Source of the DNA: an uncultured Hyphomicrobiales bacterium | GTDB lineage: Bacteria > Pseudomonadota > Alphaproteobacteria > Rhizobiales > Beijerinckiaceae | DNA length: 37,843 bases | Assembly (NCBI GenBank): GCA_903900975.1 | Contig: CAIUPE010000019.1 | Coordinates: 1 to 37,843 of the forward strand | Reading direction: 5' to 3' | Part shown: piece after piece, positions 23,295-36,942 of the stretch | How positions within the stretch are numbered: the stretch's first letter is position 1 | Layout: each line of letters starts with the position of its first letter | Translations under genes and position numbers: made by a program | Notes under the pieces: generated by a model | Told to the model about the DNA's origin: nothing | Databases searched by the model: none | Seen by the model: only the letters and a program-made list of their open reading frames with translations

Positions 23295-24362
<1,068 letters not shown>

Positions 24363-24443
24363 TCAAAGCCAAAATCTTGAATAAACAAGCCTTGTTGCAC
24401 AGCAGGCCGCCACGTTGGGCTGATACATAAGGATAGCACCGTT

Positions 24444-24857
24444 ATGGCGATCCATCTTGATGCTTCTGCAGTCGGCTGGGAGCGTCCGTTGCAATGGGGT
24501 TATCGGGTTGTGGCCCTTTTATGGCTCATGAAAGGGCTTTACGGTTGGGCCGTCTTGATGGGGCTTAATAGCCATGGCCAGGATTTCGTCCACCTTGCCG
24601 GCTGGGTGCCTTTTTTTGTGCCAATCGTTTTGCCGATCGTCGATATGATCGCCGGAGTGGCGCTATGGATTTCGTGGCGTTGGGGCGGCGGAGTCTGGGC
24701 GATCGCCGCTTTTGGCTATCTCTGCGTTGAGGCTGCTGGAATGACGACCTTTCAGCCAAAAGGCGAGGCGGGATTAGTAGCGATTATGCTGGCACTGCAT
24801 GTGGTCAGAATGCTTTTTGTGCGAGCTAAATCCGAGCAAACGATGACAATCGTCTAA
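24444..24857 (+). CDS. DUF6163-type small membrane protein
   Basis: Integral membrane protein of 137 residues with about four hydrophobic segments (about 18-40, 51-75, 80-99 and 106-126). It resembles the DUF6163 family, which in Hyphomicrobiales is found next to ldtR and an L,D-transpeptidase gene, as here. No catalytic motif is visible. The function is unknown. Conserved linkage to a peptidoglycan crosslinking enzyme and its regulator points to the cell envelope, by inference only. Confidence 0.75.
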   Translation: MAIHLDASAVGWERPLQWGYRVVALLWLMKGLYGWAVLMGLNSHGQDFVHLAGWVPFFVPIVLPIVDMIAGVALWISWRWGGGVWAIAAFGYLCVEAAGMTTFQPKGEAGLVAIMLALHVVRMLFVRAKSEQTMTIV

Positions 24858-24951
24858 TTTTATCCACCATATTCGTAATTCCCTCACCACGTCGAGCATA
24901 AACCTTTTATTCATTTTAATTGTTAAGTCGTCTTTTACGTGCATAACTATA

Positions 24952-24966
24952 ATTACCTAACGTAAT
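24952..24966. promoter_or_regulatory. Inverted repeat in the ldtR upstream region
   Basis: ATTAC and GTAAT form an inverted repeat with a 5-nt spacer, 35-49 nt before the ldtR ATG, in a locally AT-rich stretch. MarR-family regulators commonly bind such sites in their own promoter. This is a candidate autoregulatory site only. Confidence 0.35.
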
Positions 24967-25000
24967 GATTGTATTTTTATCATGAAGTGGGTTTTTAAAC

Positions 25001-25513
25001 ATGAACAAAATTGTCAAGATTTCCGTTGCAGATGTGGGGGTTGATGCCGTTTCATCTCATCATCCTTTTTATCTCGAAGCGCTTTCGCTCGTAGAGCGAT
25101 TGCACCGTTCACTGTTAGACGTCATCAAGAATGAGTTTGATCGACGGAGCCGCTCAGATATCAATCCGGTACAGGCTTTATTGCTGTTCAATATCGGGGA
25201 TAAAGAACTGACGGCCGGCGAGCTTCGTTCGCGCGGTTATTATCTAGGTTCGAACGTGTCATATAACGTCAAGAAACTGGTCGAAATGGGGTTTTTGTCT
25301 CACGAGCGCTCGCGCACGGATCGACGTTCGGTTCGGATCAGTTTGACCGGTAAGGGCGAAGATATCCATCATATTGTCGCCGGCCTATATGAAAAGCATA
25401 TGAAGACCGTTGAGCAGGTGGGGGGGATTTCCGATGTTGAGTTCCGACAGACTAACGCTGTCCTTGTCCGATTAGAGCGCTTTCTTAATGATCATGTGAA
25501 ATATCGCCTTTAG
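25001..25513 (+). CDS. ldtR: MarR-family transcriptional regulator LdtR
   Basis: Winged-helix regulator of 170 residues. It has the MarR layout: N-terminal dimerisation helix (SLVERLHRSLLDVIKNEF), helix-turn-helix region LTAGELRSRGYYLGSNVSYNVKKLVEMGFLS (about 71-101), and the wing with RSRTDRRSVRISLTGKG (about 104-120). In Liberibacter and relatives, LdtR controls the L,D-transpeptidase gene ldtP and osmotic/stress traits. Here the gene sits directly upstream of such an enzyme and downstream of a DUF6163 gene, the expected neighbourhood. An inverted repeat in its promoter may be an autoregulatory operator. Confidence 0.87.
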   Translation: MNKIVKISVADVGVDAVSSHHPFYLEALSLVERLHRSLLDVIKNEFDRRSRSDINPVQALLLFNIGDKELTAGELRSRGYYLGSNVSYNVKKLVEMGFLSHERSRTDRRSVRISLTGKGEDIHHIVAGLYEKHMKTVEQVGGISDVEFRQTNAVLVRLERFLNDHVKYRL

Positions 25514-25594
25514 TTGGCAAGCCCATCAAAGTTGGCAAAAATATCTGGCTTGGTCATGAAAATGACAAACCTGTCCTGAACATGGAGGAGCCAT

Positions 25595-25626
25595 CGGTAA
25601 AGGAGTGCGAAAGCATTCCTTTACCG
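25595..25626 (+). promoter_or_regulatory. GAAA-capped hairpin in the ldtP leader
   Basis: CGGTAAAGGAGTGC and GCATTCCTTTACCG form a 14-bp arm pair (one G-T wobble) closed by a GAAA tetraloop. It lies between the ldtR stop and the ldtP signal peptide. No T-run follows, so a simple intrinsic terminator is unlikely. The 5' arm contains AAAGGAG, a sequence that could act as a ribosome-binding site and would be masked in the fold. A GTG-initiated start at 25605 would lie inside this hairpin. Confidence 0.6.
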
Positions 25627-25682
25627 TCTTGGGTGATACTCTCTTCAGGTTTATGGGAATCATGGTCATGCTCGTTGCTACA

Positions 25683-26936
25683 ATGGTGTCACGGCGTTCG
25701 TTTCTTCTTGGAACTGTGGCGGTCGTGATGGCCACCAGCCTTCCGAAGGCATCGTTTGCACAGAATCTGGAAGATGATCAGGGTGATCAGGCGGAATGGG
25801 TGCAAAATTACGATGCAGCGACGTCCAAGACGCTAGATCGATCGACATTGCCGCTCTTGTCGCCTGAAACCCTGAACGCGACAATGAATGCGCTCGAATC
25901 CTTCAAGTCTATTGTCGCCAAAGGCGGTTGGCCCGAGATGCCACACGTTCCCTTGAAGCTGGGTATGCAGAATCCTGCCGTAGTTGATCTGCGCAAGCGC
26001 CTGATCGCATCAGGTGATCTTGATGCTTCCGCAGGCCTTTCCGATACGTTTGATTCTTTTGTAGAGACCGGTGTTCGCCGCTTCCAGGAGCTCCACGGGC
26101 TCCGTCCTACCGGGCTGGTTAATTCACAAACCATCACGGCGTTGAACATCCCGGCCGACGTGCGGATGAAGCAGTTGGAAGTGAACGTCATTCGCCTTCG
26201 CTCATATGCCACCAATCCAGGGTATCGCTATGTGGTAGCCAATATTCCAGGGGCGATGGTGGAGACGGTCGAGGATAATGTGGTGCAGACGCGGCATGCT
26301 GCGGGCGTTGGTAAAATCGATCGGCAATCGCCAATCATGACCACGAAAGTGATTGATATCAATTTCAATCCGTTTTGGACCGTTCCGGCCTCGATCATCA
26401 AAAAGGATCTGATCCCGAAGATGCAGGCTAATCCAGATTATCTGACCGAGAACAAGATTCGGATCTTTACCAGCGATGGTCAGGAGGTGACGCCAGAGCG
26501 TATTAATTGGAAGAGTGATGAGGCGACGCATTACCAATTCAGGCAAGATCCGGGTGGCGAGTTCAACTCGCTGGGTTTTGTGCGCATTAATATTGCTAAT
26601 CCCTATGGCGTTTATATGCACGATACGCCAGCCAAGGGTATTTTTGGTGATGATTATCGCTTCGTATCGTCCGGCTGTATGCGCGTACAAAATGTCCGCG
26701 ATTATGTCGAATGGCTGTTAAAGGAAACACCCGGCTGGACGCGCGCGCAGATTGACGAGGCGATCCAGTCCGGCCAACGGGTGGATGCTAAGTTGGCCAA
26801 GCCTGTGCCGGTGTTCTGGATTTATATCACCGCTTGGGCAACCCAAGACGGACTCGTTCAATTCCGCGACGACATTTACAACAAAGACGGTTTGGGGGCC
26901 GTACCGCTCGCCACTGTCGTTCAGACCGACCAGTAA
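25683..26936 (+). CDS. ldtP: L,D-transpeptidase (YkuD domain) with peptidoglycan-binding domain
   Basis: Periplasmic enzyme that forms 3-3 crosslinks in peptidoglycan or attaches proteins to it. With the ATG at 25683 the protein has 417 residues. It begins MVSRRSFLLGTVAVVMATSLPKASFA, a signal peptide with a twin-arginine-like SRRSFL motif. In-frame alternatives are an ATG at 25653 and a GTG at 25605; none has an ideal ribosome-binding site. A PG_binding_1-like domain (about 96-165, NPAVVDLRKRLIA to TGLVNSQTITALNI) precedes the YkuD domain. Its catalytic Cys is near 332 in FVSSGCMRVQNV, with a His in YGVYMHDTPAKGIF. The motif reads SSGCMRV rather than the common SHGCIR. The gene follows ldtR, its probable regulator. 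Confidence 0.88.
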   Translation: MVSRRSFLLGTVAVVMATSLPKASFAQNLEDDQGDQAEWVQNYDAATSKTLDRSTLPLLSPETLNATMNALESFKSIVAKGGWPEMPHVPLKLGMQNPAVVDLRKRLIASGDLDASAGLSDTFDSFVETGVRRFQELHGLRPTGLVNSQTITALNIPADVRMKQLEVNVIRLRSYATNPGYRYVVANIPGAMVETVEDNVVQTRHAAGVGKIDRQSPIMTTKVIDINFNPFWTVPASIIKKDLIPKMQANPDYLTENKIRIFTSDGQEVTPERINWKSDEATHYQFRQDPGGEFNSLGFVRINIANPYGVYMHDTPAKGIFGDDYRFVSSGCMRVQNVRDYVEWLLKETPGWTRAQIDEAIQSGQRVDAKLAKPVPVFWIYITAWATQDGLVQFRDDIYNKDGLGAVPLATVVQTDQ

Positions 26937-26940
26937 GCCC

Positions 26941-28761
26941 TTACTCGGCGCTCGCGGGGGCCTCATTTGACCGTTTCAGAATACGGTTGATGTCGGGCGT
27001 AACGATAGGGTCGTCAAAATTGCCGGTAACCGTATAGGCCAATACGGCAGGTTCTGCGCCATTGGATGGCGGAGGGCCTAAGGCCTCGCCCGTCAAGTTG
27101 AGGGTTCGTGCCCCGATATTGATTTGACCCTTTAGCACCATATGGTTTGGTGCGAACTTCATGTCAGTGTCGCTGAGTTCTGCTTTTCCGTCATTGGCCT
27201 GGGCAAACACATGCATCGTCTCGAAATCGGTCTTGCCGCCACGCATATCGCGGATGACTGAGAGCGGGCGCGTTTCGATGCGTTTGAGCACCGAAGCCAT
27301 GTTGATTCCAGTCAACGTGCCGTTGGTGATCGCGAATTCAGTGGTGCCGGATAGAGATTTCATGATCTGATCTAGCGTTGTGCCGCTCGCATCAAAATTG
27401 AATTTTCCGGTTGCCGTGCCCTCAACCTTTTTCATATCCATCAAAGCAAGCGTCGATTGACCAATATCAATGGCCTCAAAGCTGCCATGGGTACTTACAG
27501 AATAGCCTGTCTCAACCGGATGCATAGACATCTTGCCTTTGGCACTGCCCTGAAACAGTTTGGCCGACGCTAAGGTAACATCGAGCGCGCGGTCCTTGGC
27601 CATTATGGCAAGGGCAACGTTGGATATACGAACAATGCCCAAATTTACGCGTTCCGCCGACAAACGGATATCTAGATCTTGGCGGGGCGTGGCTTCCTGA
27701 TCGAAGGTATCAAGTTTCCAACCCGCCGAGCTCATTTGTTTGGGCCAAACCGGCGTAAGGAAGCTGGTCACGTCCATGTCACCAGCCGAAAGCGTGCCGG
27801 TTACAAGGGGCCGTGGACCTGATACGTCGAAGGAAATTCCGCCGGTCATTTGCACCGGCCCCAACTTGACCTGTGCATCCGAAACCGCCAGCGCAAGCGG
27901 TGTAAGATGCGCCTTACCGTCGAGCCGAAGCGACGTGGCGATATTGACGGGCGGCGAAAGGTTGAGCCATTCGCTTAAACGATCAATACGGGAAACATCG
28001 CTGACAATGGTGCCGTCAAATTCGGCCTTACCTTTCCTAAAAACTTCGCCCACTAGGCGCACACTACCCGTTGGTGCGCTGAAATCGAACGAAAGGCGGC
28101 TCGACTGTTCCTGTTGTGGATCGGGCTTGCCGAGATCAACCTTCGCAGCAACATCCTGTTGATGCCAGAGCCCTGAAAGGGAAAGGCTTTTGGAGCCATC
28201 CTTCAAGAAATAAAGCGATGCCTTGAGGTTTGACCCGCCCGCAAGGGTATTGGCGGTACCCGATATTTCGATTTTACCGCCATTCATGGTGATCGTTTCA
28301 ATTTGATGGCGGGAGAGCGCGCGGTCACGGTCGTCGTCAGCGGCAAGGCTTGCTGCGAGCAGGGGAGCGAGACTCACCAGATCGGTCGGGACGAGGCGTT
28401 CAGGCACCGAAACCTTCGGTTGCTCCAGATGCATCGAGGTCGGTTCATAGCGGCTACCCAAAAGCGAGAACATGCGCAGGCCAAAGGAGACGCTCGGTGA
28501 TTGCAATTCGATTTTATTGTCAAACGAGAGACTTAACGAGGAAATCTCGATAGTTGGTTGAGGTAAAAAATGTAAGCTTGCTCTACCTTCGATGGTCGAG
28601 ACAGGCGACAGATCACGGCTAAGAATTTCCCGCAATTCAGCGAGGACTGGCCCGCTACTGACCGGAATCGATACAAAGCCGGCAGCCAATAACACCGTCA
28701 GACCAACGGCAGCGAGCGCCAGTTTTCGGATCAGCGAAGGGAAAATCTTAATGGCGATCAT
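26941..28761 (-). CDS. AsmA-family inner-membrane protein
   Basis: Large AsmA-like protein of 606 residues. It has one N-terminal membrane anchor (about 12-33, KLALAAVGLTVLLAAGFVSI) and a long periplasmic part rich in alternating beta strands. The C-terminal AsmA_2 region is recognisable in FNFDASGTTLDQIMKSLSGT and FAITNGTLTGINMASVLKRIE. AsmA-like proteins are thought to form bridge-like channels or tethers for phospholipid transfer to the outer membrane. This member could belong to any of several paralogue groups. It converges on ldtP with only a few bases between stops and is divergent from the acetoacetyl-CoA synthetase gene. Confidence 0.85.
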   Translation of the reverse strand: MIAIKIFPSLIRKLALAAVGLTVLLAAGFVSIPVSSGPVLAELREILSRDLSPVSTIEGRASLHFLPQPTIEISSLSLSFDNKIELQSPSVSFGLRMFSLLGSRYEPTSMHLEQPKVSVPERLVPTDLVSLAPLLAASLAADDDRDRALSRHQIETITMNGGKIEISGTANTLAGGSNLKASLYFLKDGSKSLSLSGLWHQQDVAAKVDLGKPDPQQEQSSRLSFDFSAPTGSVRLVGEVFRKGKAEFDGTIVSDVSRIDRLSEWLNLSPPVNIATSLRLDGKAHLTPLALAVSDAQVKLGPVQMTGGISFDVSGPRPLVTGTLSAGDMDVTSFLTPVWPKQMSSAGWKLDTFDQEATPRQDLDIRLSAERVNLGIVRISNVALAIMAKDRALDVTLASAKLFQGSAKGKMSMHPVETGYSVSTHGSFEAIDIGQSTLALMDMKKVEGTATGKFNFDASGTTLDQIMKSLSGTTEFAITNGTLTGINMASVLKRIETRPLSVIRDMRGGKTDFETMHVFAQANDGKAELSDTDMKFAPNHMVLKGQINIGARTLNLTGEALGPPPSNGAEPAVLAYTVTGNFDDPIVTPDINRILKRSNEAPASAE

Positions 28762-30861: not shown

Positions 30862-31470
30862 TTAGCGTTCAGGACGCGGTATCCGGTTATACCCATCCTT
30901 CATCGCCGGACGTTGATCGGGCAAAGTTGGCTCGGTCCAATTCGGCGTTTGACCCATCAGAAGGTCGATAAAGGGAATGGCAAAATCCGGATTGTCGCGC
31001 GCGTTCTCCTTGAAACTGTGCCAGAGCCTTGGATCATCGGTATGATCGGAGAGAGTAGGTAAGCGCTGACCCTCCTGCTCAATGACTGTGAGTGTAATCC
31101 CTAGGCAATAACTCACATAGGCGGACCCGGCCGGCCAAAGATCTTTCGGTTCATCCGTGGATGTCCCCACGCCAATCACCGTGAGAGGATCATAACGCAG
31201 CAACTGGGCCAACATACCACCGGCCGAAAAGCAAATAAAATCAAAGCGGTCAATTGCAGCGAAGGGGTGGGTAGAATAAAAAGCTTCAAGCCAAGCTAAA
31301 AAGCACGATCTCAGCCGCCCCTGATCGGTTTTTGCGCGTAACCCCGTGCGCGAGAGCGTTAGGGTAGCATTCCGTCGGAAAGTCGTTTCAAAAAACCTTA
31401 AATCGCGCATTCGGTGGCGCAAATCGGTTTGGCCGTGGAGTTCAGAAACCAGCGGAATCTTCATGGTCAA
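30862..31470 (-). CDS. Uncharacterised protein, last gene of the HPr-rel-like operon
   Basis: Protein of 202 residues that I do not recognise. There is no signal peptide or membrane span. The only motif-like piece is DFICFSAGGMLAQLLRYDP (about 77-95). It resembles the strand-nucleophile-helix elbow of alpha/beta hydrolases (small-x-Ser-x-Gly) but lacks a proper GxSxG, and no matching Asp/His pair is obvious. The Pro/Arg-rich C-terminus looks flexible. Its ATG overlaps the stop of the 262-residue gene by 4 nt (ATGA), so it is translationally coupled to the same operon. It converges on the acetoacetyl-CoA synthetase gene with 12 nt between stops. Confidence 0.65.
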   Translation of the reverse strand: MTMKIPLVSELHGQTDLRHRMRDLRFFETTFRRNATLTLSRTGLRAKTDQGRLRSCFLAWLEAFYSTHPFAAIDRFDFICFSAGGMLAQLLRYDPLTVIGVGTSTDEPKDLWPAGSAYVSYCLGITLTVIEQEGQRLPTLSDHTDDPRLWHSFKENARDNPDFAIPFIDLLMGQTPNWTEPTLPDQRPAMKDGYNRIPRPER

Positions 31471-32255
31471 CTCTCGGCTAATGGCGGAGCAAGAAGTTGA
31501 TATTCGGCGGCAAGGTGGGTTTGAGGATCAAACCCGCTCAAAATCGCCGCAAGATTGGCCTTTCGCAGATCTATCACATCGGCCGAAAGACCGAGGGCGG
31601 CAAGTGTTGCTTCGTGGCCCTTAACGGGCGATCGCACAAGTACCGCCTCGGCCAAGCCAAGCGTGGCAAAAACAAGCATTGGGAGCGATGGCTCATTCCC
31701 AGGTGACACATCATCTACGATCGCACCGCTATCGATCAAAGCAAGGGTTGTTGCAGCGATTTTTGTGTATCGACCAAGCTCCATCGTATCTGTGACCTTG
31801 GGATTGGAAAATTGGGCGTTAAGTGTCTGCCATGCGGTGTCGATGGGCCGCTCTAAGACGAGGTGTTTGGTAAACCCGAAATGGGCCAGCGCAATTTTGG
31901 AAGCGGCATATCGAGACGACACAAAGCCGTTACGTCGATCCTCGCTGTTCCGTTGCATTTCTATACCGAAGCCCGATCCGGCGAAGGAATTGATGCGTCC
32001 TTCATCCCGTTGGCGAAGCAAAATATCGCGGGCGATATCCTCGCCAAGGGCAGTAAACTTTCGCGTTTTCGTCAGCAGGTGAGCGGCCAGAGCCAAGGGC
32101 GAAAGGGGACGACCGGACAGAGGGAGATCAGGTAATTCAGACTGCCATTCCGACAAGCGTTGCCGAATGCCACGTAAACCGTCTTTTACAGCGAGCGGCA
32201 CGCGCACCATATCGCCTTGGTCCGGTAAATAAGGCGGGCGCGGGCCAGTCACCAT
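31467..32255 (-). CDS. Uncharacterised protein, fifth gene of the HPr-rel-like operon
   Basis: Protein of 262 residues with no family I can name. There is no signal peptide and no clear membrane span; LPMLVFATLGLAEAVLV is hydrophobic but short of a convincing span. Stretches rich in Ala and Leu suggest an alpha-helical fold (for example TKIAATTLALIDSGAI and HLAAEYQLLAPP). The start at 32255 lacks a strong ribosome-binding site; an in-frame ATG 45 nt later (MVRVPLAVKDGL) is possible. It begins 31 nt after the nucleotidyltransferase stop and overlaps the next gene by 4 nt. Function cannot be assigned. Confidence 0.65.
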   Translation of the reverse strand: MVTGPRPPYLPDQGDMVRVPLAVKDGLRGIRQRLSEWQSELPDLPLSGRPLSPLALAAHLLTKTRKFTALGEDIARDILLRQRDEGRINSFAGSGFGIEMQRNSEDRRNGFVSSRYAASKIALAHFGFTKHLVLERPIDTAWQTLNAQFSNPKVTDTMELGRYTKIAATTLALIDSGAIVDDVSPGNEPSLPMLVFATLGLAEAVLVRSPVKGHEATLAALGLSADVIDLRKANLAAILSGFDPQTHLAAEYQLLAPPLAES

Positions 32256-32286
32256 GGGAGTGTTCCAAAAATGGATTGGGATCTTT

Positions 32287-33699
32287 TTACTCTATTTTGA
32301 TGGATCGCACATCGGTATTTTGAGGGCTCACTACCGCGAAGGGCACCGGATGTGCTTGCGATATATGCTCGGGTGCGGCTTCATCGTCCAAAGGACCGAT
32401 GGGCACGGCGATAATCTCGATTTGAGTAGGGAGTTGAAAACCAGACGGAAGCTTAAAGGACCATTCGATCCAATCGGATCCATCCGGTGTGACGCGACCT
32501 CGCAAGAGGCTGGATACACGGTTGTCGACGATGACCTCGAACATGATTTTACGTTTCTGTGCCGGGCGGCGAAAGGCTAAGGTCACCGGCAAGGTCACAT
32601 CATCGACTTGAATGAGACGATGACGGCTGCTGATCGTCGAGGCCGGAGCACTTGCTGGGCGGGCTTTTGGCCGTATCACTTTGACGTCGTCACGTTCTTT
32701 TCGTTCGAGGGAATAGTCGCCCCGAAGCAGAGCGTCGGCAAAAAGACCAATGGCACGTTCGGCAACGCCGCGGCGAGCTTTCGGCCGCGCTGTAGCGTAA
32801 GCTTTCAAACGCTCGCCGAACGTTGATGTGCTGTTCCGCATCGCCTTTCGCGCGCCTTTGACATCGAGAAAAAGAGTATTTTCAATCCAACGAAGCCGCG
32901 ACTCGATCAACGGCGCCAAGCCGCGTTGACTGACGCGGTCGGCGAAGGCGTTCCAGTCAAAAGCTGGGTCCTTTAGTCGGGCGATCAGTTCAATGATCCA
33001 GTCTCCCATTATGCTGCCAGCGGAATGACCGAGTGCAAATACAAGCATGTCGACAGAGTCGGGGATTGCAACCGCGATGCCGGCCATTGAAACGGCGCGT
33101 GCTCTAGACCATACCGCTTTTTCGAGCTCGGGATCGGCACGGGTAAAATGCAAGGGAACATGGTGCAAGTCGATCTCACCCCGCTTGCCCCGCACGAGAT
33201 TAATGCCCGCCCGACGGCGAGCCACTTGGCGCAGAAAGGTTGCACTCAGATCGCGGGCGGATTGCCATCCGGTGGCTAAGAGAATTTCCAATGCCTTCTC
33301 AAAATCTTTTGGCTGCACAAGAACATCGACGTCACCTAAGATACGTCGCCGCGCGAACGGGATCGCTTCCGCATAGAGCGCGGCTCCCTTGATTAGCATG
33401 GTGGGAATTTCGGCCTTGGTCAGTTCCTCGATCGCGCGTGAGGATTCTGCGACGAGGAGATTGGATCGCGTCCAAGTCTGTTTTGCGACCCCAACCATGC
33501 GAGGCCGTAAGGTTGAGGGTGGATCGAGAAACTCAAGTCGTTCACACACCAGCGGCAACAGCCGCATTTCTTCCCACCCGATTGTCTCAAAATTATTCTC
33601 GGATGCCCATGCCTGGATAGCCGCCCGAGCAATATCGACCGGTGCGAAAGCCGCTTGCAACAATTGCTCAACGGGCCGTGTGAAATAGACGTCACTCAC
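32287..33699 (-). CDS. Nucleotidyltransferase family protein (NTP_transf_5/PF14907 type)
   Basis: Putative nucleotidyltransferase of 470 residues. The N-terminal half has the family pattern: PTMLIKGAALYAEA, then RRRILGDVDVLVQPKDFEKALEIL with the DxD-type metal site in GDVDVLV, and GEIDLHHVPLHF with another acidic residue after it. The C-terminal 120 residues, beta-rich and separated by a basic linker near 335-350, are a second domain of unknown role. A GTG at 33699 is chosen: an AAGGAG lies 10 nt upstream and the following VSDVYFTRPVEQLL looks like a natural start. A longer frame to 33783 would overlap the glycosyltransferase gene. PF14907 proteins often sit with PqqD-like and HprK-like genes, as here. 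The substrate is unknown. Confidence 0.8.
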   Translation of the reverse strand: MSDVYFTRPVEQLLQAAFAPVDIARAAIQAWASENNFETIGWEEMRLLPLVCERLEFLDPPSTLRPRMVGVAKQTWTRSNLLVAESSRAIEELTKAEIPTMLIKGAALYAEAIPFARRRILGDVDVLVQPKDFEKALEILLATGWQSARDLSATFLRQVARRRAGINLVRGKRGEIDLHHVPLHFTRADPELEKAVWSRARAVSMAGIAVAIPDSVDMLVFALGHSAGSIMGDWIIELIARLKDPAFDWNAFADRVSQRGLAPLIESRLRWIENTLFLDVKGARKAMRNSTSTFGERLKAYATARPKARRGVAERAIGLFADALLRGDYSLERKERDDVKVIRPKARPASAPASTISSRHRLIQVDDVTLPVTLAFRRPAQKRKIMFEVIVDNRVSSLLRGRVTPDGSDWIEWSFKLPSGFQLPTQIEIIAVPIGPLDDEAAPEHISQAHPVPFAVVSPQNTDVRSIKIE

Positions 33700-33718
33700 C
33701 GGTACGTTTCTCCTTGGA

Positions 33719-34498
33719 TTAAGGATTAATCGCTGCCGTCGGGCTGAGTTTGCCCGCCCGACCGACGACCGTATCCGCGTCAAAGTCTTGGTAGAAAAAC
33801 ATATTAACCTTCTCTCCCGGCGCGGAGCGGCGGCGCTTCATAGATTTATGGTGGGCGCGGATGAGAAATTTTTGCAGTCCGATCGTATCGTTGGTCATGT
33901 TATCTTTGTGCCGACGATGGAAAACAGAGTCCGCTGTCTCGATCATAATCGGCCAGTCGGCTTCGATAATTCTGAGATAGAAATCGAGATCTTCTCCAAA
34001 GGACAGTTCCTCGTCGAAGGCGCCGAGTTGGTCGAATACCGTGCGGCGAAAGGTTGCCGATGCGAGGCAAATATCCAACTTACGCTCCAACGGGGGTTCA
34101 ATTGTCCATGGCGTGTTGCTTTCGGAGCGAAAAATCCGGCGATGGCCGATCACCGCGGCAAGCGACGGATCGGCTTCGAGCTTGCCAATCTGACGGGCTA
34201 ATTTGCCTGGCGCGAAGAGATCATCGGAGTCAAGAAACGAAACGAAGGGCGCTGCTATGGCCGAAACTGCAATGTTTCGAGCAATGGCAACGCCTTGATG
34301 GTTGCCTTGAATTACGACAATTCGCGGATTGTTTGCCGCTAAAGTGAGGAGGAGTTCGACTGTGCCATCCGTCGAACCATCATCCACCAGAACCACGCGG
34401 GCATCGACGCCTACTTCGGCTAATACCGAATTAATGGATGCCTCGACATAGCCCACACGGTTAAACACAGGCATCAATACATCGACTCGGGGGCTCAT
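33719..34498 (-). CDS. Family 2 glycosyltransferase
   Basis: GT-A-fold glycosyltransferase of 259 residues, probably cytoplasmic. Seen are VDVLMPVFNRVGYVEASINS at the N-terminus, VVLVDDGSTDGT (about 36-47), the FVSFLDSDDLFAPGKL metal-binding DxD region (about 84-99), and a GEDLDFYLRI motif near 168-177 that probably supplies the catalytic base. There is no membrane span. Its ATG overlaps the stop of the HprK-like gene by one base (TAATG), so translation is coupled. The acceptor is unknown. By context it could decorate a peptide or lipid product of this operon. Confidence 0.9.
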   Translation of the reverse strand: MSPRVDVLMPVFNRVGYVEASINSVLAEVGVDARVVLVDDGSTDGTVELLLTLAANNPRIVVIQGNHQGVAIARNIAVSAIAAPFVSFLDSDDLFAPGKLARQIGKLEADPSLAAVIGHRRIFRSESNTPWTIEPPLERKLDICLASATFRRTVFDQLGAFDEELSFGEDLDFYLRIIEADWPIMIETADSVFHRRHKDNMTNDTIGLQKFLIRAHHKSMKRRRSAPGEKVNMFFYQDFDADTVVGRAGKLSPTAAINP

Positions 34499-35577
34499 TA
34501 GGCTCTCTCCAGTGCATCAAGTGACGTAAGTTCGAAAATTAACCGGGTGATGGTTTGGGCGATATCTGCTGGATCACGCGACAGTGCCAACTCGTAAGCC
34601 GGCAAGCGGGCCAGAAGCCTATTCATCGTAAAAAGTGTCTGTGATATTTCGCCAAAAAATTCGGCGTTCATGGCACGGGTCAGCGTGTCGAGTGCTTGCC
34701 GGCGAGCCATCGGCTTTAGCTCACAAGCGGGAACCGCGGCCACGCGGGGTAAGATGATCGCGACCAACTCAAAAGATGAAATGATTTGTCCGGGGAAAGT
34801 GTGGCGCGGATCAAATTCGGCTTTTCCATGCCAATTTCGAGCGACCGAGCGGAGTTTGGCGTCAAGGTCGGGAAATCGCGCTAGCCCTTTATCATCCTGC
34901 TTCATGACCGTATAAATACGTTCGGCGCGCGGGGTGTCCCGTTGGTCGAGCAGTATGTAGTCGTCGCCAACACTCGATAGACCCTGTGCTAATCCCGATA
35001 AAACGGTGCCCGATTTTCCTGCCCCGCCGGCACCGCAAAGCAAGACCCCATGTCCCTGCGTAGCGAGGGTACCGGCGTGTATGAGTCGCATTTGGCGACG
35101 TTGCGCGGACCAATGAACGATCCAGCGGAGCGGTGCCCCGCCGTCCCAAGGTCGAAGATCATCCCAGCGCGGTACAATATGGATGGCCATTCCGTCGGAT
35201 ATTCGTTGCACAATCCAATCGCGATCAAAGAACGGCGGGTGGACCTTATATCCCGCGCTGGCCAGTGCAGTGTCAAAGCTCGTTATGTTCCAGTTGGGAT
35301 CGTCCCAAAGCGGAATCCGCCAACCGATTTCATCGCCAGAAAGGCTGAACCAATGTTCTTCAACTGGCTTTTCGCTTGGTCGGACATCAAGCCGCGAGCG
35401 TATGAAATCGACACGGCCTTGGTTCGATGCGTGTATCCGACAGGTCGTGTTCGCAATCTGTCCATCGACATAGTGCAAAGCATCAGCCGCCAATCGATTG
35501 GTACAATGCGAAAAAAGGGCATCGAACCAGGCAGGTAGCTCCTGTAAATTGATCCGATCCGGACCGTGAAGGCTCAT
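34498..35577 (-). CDS. HPr kinase-like P-loop protein (HprK-related kinase)
   Basis: Protein of 359 residues with a P-loop GAGGAGKSG near 182-190, inside GVLLCGAGGAGKSGTVLSGL. This is the layout of the HPr kinase/phosphorylase C-terminal domain and of the 'HprK-related kinase A' group. A Walker-B-like SVGDDYILLD follows about 20 residues later. The first 170 residues are not the usual HprK N-domain. True HprK phosphorylates Ser46 of HPr; this relative has no known substrate and is linked with PqqD-like genes instead. The ATG at 35577 overlaps the PqqD-like stop codon (ATGA); an in-frame ATG at 35595 is less likely. Confidence 0.82.
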   Translation of the reverse strand: MSLHGPDRINLQELPAWFDALFSHCTNRLAADALHYVDGQIANTTCRIHASNQGRVDFIRSRLDVRPSEKPVEEHWFSLSGDEIGWRIPLWDDPNWNITSFDTALASAGYKVHPPFFDRDWIVQRISDGMAIHIVPRWDDLRPWDGGAPLRWIVHWSAQRRQMRLIHAGTLATQGHGVLLCGAGGAGKSGTVLSGLAQGLSSVGDDYILLDQRDTPRAERIYTVMKQDDKGLARFPDLDAKLRSVARNWHGKAEFDPRHTFPGQIISSFELVAIILPRVAAVPACELKPMARRQALDTLTRAMNAEFFGEISQTLFTMNRLLARLPAYELALSRDPADIAQTITRLIFELTSLDALERA

Positions 35578-36005
35578 GTTTTTAGAACCGGCCAACCTAT
35601 TTCTTCGTCGACATCATGAATCGGATCGGAGAGTACCAGATCACTCATATCATCGTACGAATCGAGGCCAAGATGCCGGTCGCCAGCCACATAAGCCGCG
35701 AGTACCGATGGAGCGGTTTCCGGCATATTCACCGTAGTTGGACGCAGTAATTCGGCGGCAATCAAGTCTTGCCCTAACGTTGTAACGGCTTCTTCAAGGG
35801 CGGAATCAGTCGATGCAACCGCCTTGATCAGATCGGGTAATGCGTGACCGGCCATCAAGTCACGCCAGAATGCGGCGCCAAGGCCCTGCAAACAATAATA
35901 AACGCCCGTTGCCATGTGTAAGATGACTACCTCGCCATCAAATTCATCGGCAACACATTGGGGAGCAGCTAACTCAAACTGGTTTACTGACATAGGCATA
36001 CGCAT
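35574..36005 (-). CDS. PqqD-like protein (HPr-rel-A type) with acidic C-terminal tail
   Basis: Protein of 143 residues, first gene of the six-gene operon. Residues about 10-88 fit the PqqD fold, a winged-helix RiPP-precursor recognition element: FDGEVVILHMATGVYYCLQGLGAAFWRDLM followed by a helical part, split here as FDGEVVILHMATGVYY (22-37) and LQGLGAAFWRDLM (39-51). PqqD proper is about 90 residues. The extra tail (about 110-143) is acidic and ends in a DPIHDVDEEIGWP stretch. An AAAGG 7 nt before the ATG at 36005 supports the start, with an in-frame ATG at 35999 as alternative. No separate precursor peptide gene is visible beside it. Confidence 0.8.
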   Translation of the reverse strand: MRMPMSVNQFELAAPQCVADEFDGEVVILHMATGVYYCLQGLGAAFWRDLMAGHALPDLIKAVASTDSALEEAVTTLGQDLIAAELLRPTTVNMPETAPSVLAAYVAGDRHLGLDSYDDMSDLVLSDPIHDVDEEIGWPVLKT

Positions 36006-36103
36006 TGAAAACCTTTAATGACCGAAGCCTACCTAACAGCTGCCCCAAGGTGTGTAAATGCAACGATGGGGTGATGTTACATTTAATCGAGGGCTAACAA
36101 TTA

Positions 36104-36787
36104 ATGCCGAACTTTCGATACGAGGTGATTATACCGGCCTTCAACGCTGCCGAAACAATCGCGGATGCAGTTCGGTCCTTGAACCAACAAACGGTTCCGC
36201 CCGAGCGTATTTTCATCATTGATGACGGGTCGACAGATCAGACTTATGAAGTAGCAACGAAATTGGCGGGACCGATTTCTGTCATCGCGCAGGCGAATCA
36301 AGGTCCGGCTGCGGCGACCAATGCAGGGCTTGAGCGGGTCACGGCGCCCTTTATCAGTTTTCTGGATGCTGACGATGTCTGGGTGCCGGAAAAAGCCGAG
36401 CGCCAACGCGATTATTTGGCGTCGAAGCCGACCATCGCAGGCTGTTTCGCACGTTGTGCGGCCTTCACGGGGTCGGTTGACGCGCCAGAGTTTCAAAAGC
36501 GCGCGGATAATTGGGGCCGCACGACCTTGATGATGCGGAGGGAAGTTGCCGTTCATATCGGTATGATGCTGACGGGTATGCCCGGTAATATGGGCGAAGT
36601 GATCGATTGGATTGCACGCGGGCGCCATTTAGGCCATCGCTTCGAATTGATCGAAGAGGTCTTGGCTTGGCGGCGAATACGACCTGGAAGTCTTTCCTAC
36701 AGCATTTCCTTTAATGAGCAGCGCGGCTATTTGCTCGCCGCGCGACGCGCCATTGAGCGTCGTCGAAATGCAGCTCGTTCAGATTAA
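36104..36787 (+). CDS. Family 2 glycosyltransferase, divergent from the PqqD-like operon
   Basis: GT-A glycosyltransferase of 227 residues with YEVIIPAFNAAETIADAV (about 6-23), IFIIDDGSTDQT (about 36-47), NQGPAAATNAGL and FISFLDADDVWVPEKA containing the DxD metal site (about 84-99). No clear ED-type catalytic-base segment like that of the neighbouring GT2 is present; GEVIDWIARGRHLG (about 166) is the nearest candidate. It is shorter than its neighbour and related to it. It starts 98 nt from the PqqD-like gene in the opposite direction, so the two share a promoter region. Confidence 0.88.
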   Translation: MPNFRYEVIIPAFNAAETIADAVRSLNQQTVPPERIFIIDDGSTDQTYEVATKLAGPISVIAQANQGPAAATNAGLERVTAPFISFLDADDVWVPEKAERQRDYLASKPTIAGCFARCAAFTGSVDAPEFQKRADNWGRTTLMMRREVAVHIGMMLTGMPGNMGEVIDWIARGRHLGHRFELIEEVLAWRRIRPGSLSYSISFNEQRGYLLAARRAIERRRNAARSD

Positions 36788-36868
36788 CCAGAATCGCTAA
36801 GACGTCGAACGTGTTCAAATATTTGAACAAATGCAAATTCTGAATGATCAACGAATGCAATAAAGGAT

Positions 36869-36942
36869 TGGCTGGGGGACCTGGATTCGAACCAAGATTG
36901 ACGGAGTCAGAGTCCGCAGTTCTACCGTTGAACTATCCCCCA
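36869..36942 (-). tRNA. tRNA-Gln (anticodon CTG)
   Basis: On the minus strand the sequence folds as a complete tRNA. The acceptor stem TGGGGGA pairs with TCCCCCA. D stem is GTTC/GAAC. The anticodon stem GCGGA/TCCGT (one wobble or mismatch) holds the loop CTCTGAC, giving anticodon CTG (reads CAG, glutamine). The T arm is CTTGG/CCAGG with loop TTCGAAT. Discriminator G is followed by an encoded CCA at 36869-36871. Confidence 0.95.

Follow-up and report, generated by a model that had tools for sequence, protein, structure and literature searches.

The stretch of DNA analysed here (the window) is the 37,843-nucleotide contig CAIUPE010000019.1 of an uncultured Hyphomicrobiales bacterium, one of the 153 contigs (C19) of a 2.9 Mb genome. 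Towards its end lie five genes, A, B, C, G and D, that form a conserved unit: a PqqD-like protein with a predicted RiPP recognition element (RRE; RiPP, ribosomally synthesized and post-translationally modified peptide) and a strongly conserved C-terminal tail, an HprK-like kinase, two family 2 glycosyltransferases (GT2) and a nucleotidyltransferase-fold protein. The genes and the tail motif are arranged as follows.

35574..36005, minus strand: PqqD-like protein A, 143 aa, with a predicted RRE fold (residues ~10-90), a variable linker and a conserved C-terminal tail
35586..35657, minus strand: tail motif of A, residues 117-140, YDDMSDLVLSDPIHDVDEEIGWPV, defined by conservation and by the ratio of nonsynonymous to synonymous divergence (pN/pS)
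34498..35577, minus strand: HprK-like P-loop kinase B, from PF07475 and TIGR04352 (both under cut-off) and motifs; TTG start at 35595 in the open reading frame (ORF) tool
33719..34498, minus strand: GT2 glycosyltransferase C, from PF00535
32287..33699, minus strand: PF14907 nucleotidyltransferase-fold protein D with a C-terminal beta-rich domain, from PF14907; TTG start at 33783 in the ORF tool
36104..36787, plus strand: second GT2 glycosyltransferase G, inverted in the window, from PF00535

All genes described in a first-pass annotation of the window are present where it placed them, and its junctions hold as well: A and B meet in ATGA and B and C in TAATG as read in the sequence, 19 nt (given earlier as about 20) separate the stop codon of C from a GTG start of D at 33699, also checked in the sequence, and coordinates give a spacing of 31 nt between D and a flanking gene, E, with a 4-nt overlap between E and its neighbour F. 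The ATG at 35577, in the ATGA overlap with A, is the likely start of the kinase B, and the GTG at 33699 that of D; the D residues preceding this GTG have a predicted local distance difference test (pLDDT) score below 50 in the structural model. Pfam matches lie under the cut-off for A (PF05402, PqqD; 20.6 bits, E 5.5e-4, cut-off 23.4) and for B (PF07475, Hpr_kinase_C; 21.6 bits, E 1.7e-4, cut-off 33.3). PF00535 is matched by C and G at 95.4 and 100 bits, and PF14907 (NTP_transf_5) by D at 104.8 bits, above the gathering score of 31.2.

A family-level search with B uncovered a second cassette in the same genus (genome G029, contig C17), where A-B-C-G-D run in one direction and the gene pairs are 32-41% identical to those of the window (37% over the aligned part for C and the gene in the same position, 41% for G and the fourth gene). 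An order-wide search with a B profile gave matches in 28 of 397 genomes; 22 of 33 matches were taken with their flanks, the 11 weaker ones, three of them beside a tail, being left out. A contig scan with B returned 171 relatives, and the 80 best of them, retrieved together with the names of their organisms, contributed to the pool. Most of the loci are alphaproteobacterial, many of the 80 coming from Mesorhizobium and others from Kaistia, Aminobacter, Bauldia, Hyphomicrobium, Rhodobacteraceae, Dongia and Parvibaculum; beyond the Alphaproteobacteria they include betaproteobacteria, one Chlorobiaceae metagenome-assembled genome (MAG) and planctomycete MAGs, the Chlorobi and planctomycete loci being MAG contigs. 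The resulting kinase-anchored pool of 102 loci, the window included, contains 88 distinct kinases, which fall into 54 clusters when grouped at 80% identity.

All five genes occur together in 81 of the 88 distinct loci (47 of the 54 clusters), a recurrence that shows the grouping not to be due to chance. The order A-B-C-G-D, with one or more copies of C, on one strand and with intervening genes allowed, is kept in 70 of the 88 loci and in 37 of the 54 clusters. The cassette is apparently patchily distributed and self-contained, and the retention of gene order and tail across distant lineages suits an intact system. The first-pass annotation had proposed an uncharacterised modification system built from a PqqD-like protein, a relative of HprK, a GT2 enzyme and a nucleotidyltransferase of PF14907 type, and the recurrent gene set, with two GT2 enzymes, supports this. 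Its six-gene minus-strand operon has to be redrawn: A, B, C and D belong to the unit, the two orphans E and F, without a homologue in the other 101 loci, do not, and the divergent GT2 that had been left outside, G, does. This gene is inverted in the window, as described, and elsewhere stands in line between C and D in the same 37 of 54 clusters. Co-occurrence elsewhere thus holds for the five genes and fails for the two orphans.

The N-terminal domain of A is predicted to be an RRE of the PqqD fold, closest to leader-bound TbiB1. A profile of 45 relatives of A matches TbiB1 (5v1u) at 1.4e-12, the match being confined to profile positions 12-87, and the best Foldseek matches of the AlphaFold2 model of A (pLDDT 88.8) are to TbiB1 with its leader peptide (E 1.5e-4), with a target-normalised template modelling score (TMt) of 0.73-0.75 for the 5v1u and 5v1v chains. 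F22, G34 and Y36 in this domain are invariant in all 45 aligned A proteins. Confidence in the model stays high up to about residue 120, where a short strand is placed at 115-117, and is weak beyond, with a pLDDT of about 60 after residue 130.

The tail, with the consensus [YFH]xD[LM]xxLxxxDP[IV]H[DE]VxxxxGWP, is the best-conserved part of A and is under tighter constraint than the RRE fold. In the same 45 proteins L123, D127, P128, H130, W138 and P139 are invariant; all 86 distinct A proteins carry DP[IV]H, and 85 of them, all but L055, the longer DP[IV]H...WP. Averaged over positions, the commonest residue makes up a fraction of 0.74 in the tail, against 0.48 in the RRE and 0.31 in the linker; over 122 mutually non-independent close pairs, pN/pS in these regions is 0.042, 0.214 and 0.339, respectively. 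Synonymous divergence is alike in the three regions (tail 0.40, RRE 0.35, linker 0.37), and a DNA-level cause of the conservation was rejected on this ground. The acidic tail of the PqqD-like protein had been noticed in the first-pass annotation, its status as the best-conserved part of A had not. A segment so constrained, and with so little structure in the model, suggests either a binding motif or a target of modification. Ser, Thr and Tyr are all absent from 17 of 45 tails (from eight residues before DPIH to the C-terminus), and with hydroxyl acceptors so often missing the binding reading is favoured.

A profile built from the tail only gave 29 matches at E <= 0.01 in 22 cassette genomes, each of which forms the C-terminus of a PqqD-like ORF that has a further cassette gene within the same 2-3 kb. 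An independent control was provided by a class search anchored on PqqD, which returned 32 rows from 19 of 289 genomes and an ORF from 28 of 29 loci. None of its 21 low-scoring RRE proteins has the tail, and its seven high-scoring relatives (besides that of the window) comprise five with full tails and two in which the second half is altered. Near these seven a GT2-like gene was found in all cases, a kinase in five and a PF14907 gene in three; near an eighth, partial match there was no GT2-like, kinase or PF14907 gene. The tails of L184 (G789) and L185 (G693) keep YDDMxxLLALDP, followed by PLPAAPR in place of IHEV...GWP, which suggests two separable halves of the motif. The PqqD models matched by members are 78-103 positions long and end before the tail, so that DP[IV]H...GWP offers a search handle past their reach. 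The strings DPIHDV, DPIHEV and DPVHEV do not occur in the open-access literature searched; the motif is newly recognised in this analysis, and the five-gene set is likewise without a report in that literature, where the combination of HprK, PqqD and glycosyltransferase, and PF14907, returned nothing.

The catalytic motifs of the enzymes are widely kept. A P-loop and DD[YF] are present in 86 of 88 relatives of B, and H173, K194, S195, D211, D212, K232 and K258 are invariant in 22 of 22. PF14907 is matched by all 35 aligned relatives of D (E <= 0.1), and the DxD of the nucleotidyltransferase fold by 76 of 86 D proteins, whose median length is about 490 aa. The AlphaFold2 model of D (pLDDT 88.0) gave Foldseek matches to ANT(2'')-Ia, LnuA, FKRP and CBM35, none of them strong (E 5e-3 to 3e-2); FKRP transfers ribitol phosphate. 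Besides the nucleotidyltransferase fold, D has a possible carbohydrate-binding module of CBM35-like type. By their Pfam matches C and G are ordinary GT2 enzymes, and DxDD is found in 74 of 85 C and 78 of 86 G proteins.

A variant cassette is seen in Kaistia, Pelagibacterium, Aquibium and relatives (L046, L047, L048, L051, L067, L090), with an extra protein of ~315-345 aa beside B (the L090 copy lacks a Pfam match). L046-L048 and L051 add a third glycosyltransferase-like gene, L047 and L051 a second PF14907-like gene, and in Kaistia defluvii the variant occurs alongside a plain cassette (L064, L060).

Neighbouring ORFs of at least 60 aa, antisense ones included, were clustered over the 54 loci, and the representatives of eight clusters were identified with Pfam. 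The largest group, ATP-binding cassette (ABC) transporter ATPases, is represented at 22 of 54 loci, sometimes nearer to the cassette and sometimes farther from it; apart from these, no identifiable protein-like group occurs in more than 8. Just 3 of the 22 nearest ABC proteins have the exporter domain PF00664 (L051, L056 and L100). The B2 peptidase domain PF13471 is at none of the 29 tail sites in the 22 cassette genomes; it occurs elsewhere in seven of these genomes and not at all in the other 15, the window's own included. PF00733, the domain of asparagine synthetase and macrolactam cyclases, lies ~3-4 kb from 2 of the 29 tail sites and not near the cassette of the window. The scarcity of these three domains places cyclase, B2 peptidase and exporter outside the conserved system, with an exporter joining it in a few loci. 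The earlier statement that cyclase and transporter are lacking is therefore right in that neither is constant, and is qualified by the exporter domain near 3 of 54 loci and PF00733 near 2 of 29 tail sites. It had also been noted that no radical SAM enzyme is visible, and none was recognised among recurring neighbours, with no model search aimed at radical SAM. Also among recurring neighbours, no LppS-type signal-peptidase-like gene was recognised (no such peptidase model was run), no peptidase stood out (PF13471 being the only peptidase model searched), and no polysaccharide export or polymerase gene was recognised.

The exporter genes of L051 (12422-14095) and L056 (3146-4855) are each directly beside a PF14907 gene, and that of L100 (2322-4490) has a C39 peptidase domain, as in bacteriocin exporters. 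The two asparagine-synthetase domains lie 3-4 kb downstream of second, more divergent tail-bearing cassettes (G325:C115 ~23766-27629 and G492:C1 ~65188-69906), which are outside the 88-locus pool.

A pattern search for YxxP-type leaders in ORFs of up to 130 aa at the 54 loci, which covers linked ORFs of that leader form and does not reach other forms or unlinked precursors, gave three unconvincing matches, none common to loci. DP[IV]H[DE] was found in no ORF other than A in the 54 loci. A separate small-ORF precursor was accordingly rejected, since none bears the tail and the three leader-pattern matches look like chance. As none was found in the cassette, the substrate would either come from a gene elsewhere or be A itself. 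Small secreted-looking proteins of 66-120 aa, ending in D[RH]NL[FY]G..., are found upstream of A in L042, L043 and L052, in one to three copies near the cassette, and were seen in Mesorhizobium loci only.

Several known systems share parts of this gene set. HPr-rel-A, a neighbourhood to which the first-pass annotation had linked the locus, also joins an HprK relative to a PqqD relative. The cassette stays below its curated cut-offs: TIGR04352 scores B at 32.4 bits against 200, TIGR04353 is matched by 1 of 45 A proteins (E 0.0026), and in the order the TIGR04352 cut-off is passed by none of 150 genomes, with weaker matches in 47. As had been supposed, B is not the ordinary HPr kinase either, with TIGR00679 reaching 23.7 bits against 240 over 49 matched residues, so that membership in both was rejected. 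SynChlorMet (TIGR04248, TIGR04249) has the PqqD-like and HprK-like pair in common with the cassette; the listed PqqD members score 17-23 bits against 100 and one kinase 15.9 against 125, and the PqqD model, at 84 positions, is too short to hold the tail. The SynChlorMet cassette has radical SAM partners. Among NCBIfam models lasso_PqqD_Bac is the one matched by most A proteins (42 of 45), below cut-off wherever a score was displayed. An assignment to anti-phage defence was also discarded, PADLOC yielding a single match of 13.2 bits in the kinase P-loop region and none for the other six proteins, and so was a link to phages, with 21 pattern matches in viral contigs, none of them a relative, and nothing convincing from PHROGs.

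The closest parallels are with phosphorylated peptides. In the accessible text of the LPP study (lppAKBSDN of Paenibacillus alginolyticus; PMC13381572), an HprK-like kinase, an RRE and an NTP transferase are described as the core common to LPP clusters and as present also in paeninodin-type lasso clusters, and LppK, which acts on Ser, is required for phosphorylation of its peptide. This trio, with an NTP transferase that is uncharacterised there too, is present in the cassette, which resembles the LPPs of that text in its discrete RRE, the lack of a macrolactam cyclase and its patchy distribution. LPP clusters also encode a leader peptidase resembling signal peptidases, an exporter of MsbA type and precursors of their own with YxxP leaders, and are said to be found in Bacillota only (PMC13381572, same text); the cassette in turn has two core GT2 genes, a conserved RRE tail and an exporter near just 3 of 54 loci. 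In pseudomycoidin and paeninodin-type lasso systems an HprK-like kinase and an annotated nucleotidyltransferase phosphorylate and then glycosylate, PsmK phosphorylating and PsmN adding hexoses to the phosphorylated serine, as summarised in the accessible part of a review (PMC9266682). The cassette differs in having no B2 peptidase at its 29 tail sites and no visible precursor, and D would further differ in its median length of ~490 aa and its C-terminal beta-rich domain. The cassette resembles the modification half of paeninodin-type and LPP systems and is not assigned to either, since a B2 peptidase, a cyclase, an exporter kept throughout and a YxxP precursor nearby did not turn up as parts of it. 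A more distant likeness is found on plasmid pCRI9333.04 of Crinalium epipsammum (NC_019735.1), where a PqqD protein with the tail FTDMEDLLLLDPIHEVDVEAGWP accompanies a nucleotidyltransferase, an HPr kinase and glycosyltransferases. The gene order differs, an FkbM methyltransferase is added, and the nucleotidyltransferase is 25% identical to D over part of its length and lacks the aligned DxD. This set (L201, 5896-14354) lies near a group II intron reverse transcriptase, and in the plasmid annotation its pieces are named just PqqD family protein, HPr kinase and nucleotidyltransferase family protein.

What the sequences show is a co-inherited gene set with its catalytic motifs, an RRE fold by prediction, a tail and the selection on it, and a site that is empty in congeners (below); the chemistry and its order, the part played by the tail and the substrate are inferred. 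On this reading, to which we give a probability of about one half, the cassette would build a phosphate-linked glycan on a peptide or protein, guided by the RRE, with the tail as a docking motif. A would be the scaffold; B would phosphorylate the target; D would put a sugar on that phosphate, by analogy with what is reported for its relative PsmN; and C and G would lengthen the glycan. The near-invariant, poorly ordered tail of A may serve as a linear motif for the docking of at least one of the four enzymes. The chain from phosphorylation through sugar transfer to extension is modelled on the pseudomycoidin precedent and the LPP study, each as far as its accessible text goes. A number of observations weigh against it. 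A kinase and glycosyltransferases acting on a lipid or a free sugar would give the same gene set, no substrate was found in the cassette, and with B so far below the curated HprK cut-offs homology leaves the class of substrate unfixed. The best fold match of D has an E-value of 5e-3, and catalytic motifs are missed in 10 of 86 D, 11 of 85 C and 8 of 86 G proteins, some of these being short or mis-assigned ORFs and others, mostly of the Kaistia-type variant, genuine departures. The accessible LPP text also reports no detectable change on deletion of lppN (PMC13381572), and the authors of the review, in the part available, allow that PsmN is a true nucleotidyltransferase (PMC9266682).

The tail could, less probably than a docking motif, be itself the substrate. 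A would then be recogniser and substrate in one, an RRE fused to its own core peptide, and the product, either the tail in modified form or a peptide released from it, would resemble a cofactor given how little the tail sequence varies. Enzymes aside, no conserved peptide other than the tail was seen in the cassette; the presence of DP[IV]H in every distinct A protein, its restriction to A in the 54 loci, the position of all 29 profile matches at the end of PqqD-like proteins and the lack of a leader-pattern ORF common to loci speak in the same direction. We regard this as doubtful, since the 17 of 45 tails without Ser, Thr or Tyr mean that the known Ser phosphorylation would not be general, so that His, Asp or Trp would be needed, since no peptidase stood out among recurring neighbours (PF13471 being the sole model searched), and since the second half of the motif is lost in two relatives (L142, L143). 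The corresponding proposal of a new RiPP-like class, in which the RRE would offer its fused DP[IV]H...GWP tail to the kinase, a phosphate-directed glycosyltransferase and two GT2 enzymes, is equally tentative; if true, an RRE-substrate fusion would lead to a phosphoglycosylated carrier protein or a cofactor-like peptide, through His, Asp or Trp and not Ser. Similar, limited weight is given to the tailoring of a polysaccharide or glycolipid, where kinase, nucleotidyltransferase and two glycosyltransferases would make or decorate a glycan, with the RRE protein merely an adaptor. This would fit the pair of GT2 enzymes, the nucleotidyltransferase fold and the possible CBM35-like module, as well as the frequent location of LPP and paeninodin clusters within capsule loci (PMC13381572, accessible text); against this stand the lack of a recognised polysaccharide export or polymerase gene among recurring neighbours and an RRE of leader-binding type that would have no obvious use. 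That the cassette is a lasso or LPP cluster left without its cyclase, peptidase and precursor, and works on what a different cluster of its genome makes, is very unlikely. It has the trio of RRE, HprK-like and PF14907 proteins in common with such clusters, as well as the sub-cut-off lasso_PqqD_Bac matches, PF13471 elsewhere in 7 of 22 genomes and an asparagine-synthetase domain near 2 of 29 tail sites; the total lack of PF13471 in 15 of 22 cassette genomes, including that of the window, largely refutes it, and order and tail are kept over distant lineages, the tail being absent from all 21 other RRE proteins of the class search. Lower still is the chance of an HPr-rel-A system or an ordinary HPr kinase locus. 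In its favour, TIGR04352 and TIGR00679 are the best-scoring kinase models; against it, both fail by the margins given above, the HPr-rel-A PqqD model is matched by 1 of 45 members, and none of 150 genomes of the order passes the TIGR04352 cut-off.

The cassette bears on a wider question. What the NTP transferases do, and in what way an RRE guides the sugar steps, is unsettled in the literature consulted on phosphorylated lasso and linear peptides. The cassette cuts this problem down to five genes and a linear motif that is open to deletion and point mutants, by which a docking site and a substrate could be told apart.

In the window the cassette occupies an inferred insertion interval and is bordered by features that lie outside the system.

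32256..36866, no strand: inferred insertion interval of the cassette, between E and the tRNA-Gln 3' end, from comparison with four congeners
36869..36942, minus strand: tRNA-Gln(CTG), flank of the cassette (ARAGORN); the same tRNA is beside E in four congeners
31467..32255, minus strand: flanking gene E, 262 aa, without a homologue in other cassette loci, forming its own pair with F
30862..31470, minus strand: flanking gene F, 202 aa, without a homologue in other cassette loci, forming its own pair with E

The congeners G029 (contig C45), G068, G120 and G140 carry E and F as an adjacent pair without a neighbouring cassette, next to acetoacetyl-CoA synthetase, as in the window, and to tRNA-Gln(CTG); G029 has its own cassette on a different contig, C17. 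In these four (L234-L237) only ~0.1-0.2 kb separates E from the tRNA, and homology with the window restarts at 36867-36868, at the 3' end of tRNA-Gln. Together these observations indicate that the cassette in the window fills an insertion of ~4.6 kb, apparently at the 3' end of tRNA-Gln. Flanking direct repeats are weak, none of them convincing, and there is no integrase among the genes of the interval, so that the mode of entry can be suggested only indirectly. The inclusion of the two orphans in the first-pass system is overturned by the empty site together with their absence from the other 101 loci; it is the 31-nt spacing from D that gave E the look of an operon member. Neither E nor F has a Pfam or NCBIfam match. 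In a sixth genome of the genus, G097, neither E, F nor the kinase was found. A 262-aa neighbour of an F homologue in S. meliloti has the length of E and was rejected as its homologue at 16 bits. F belongs to a widespread uncharacterised alphaproteobacterial family that includes members on plasmids of Aminobacter, Sinorhizobium and Rhizobium; the Aminobacter homologue adjoins a glucitol phosphotransferase system (PTS)/GutM operon, and that of S. meliloti Rm41 lies near glycerol-3-phosphate dehydrogenase.

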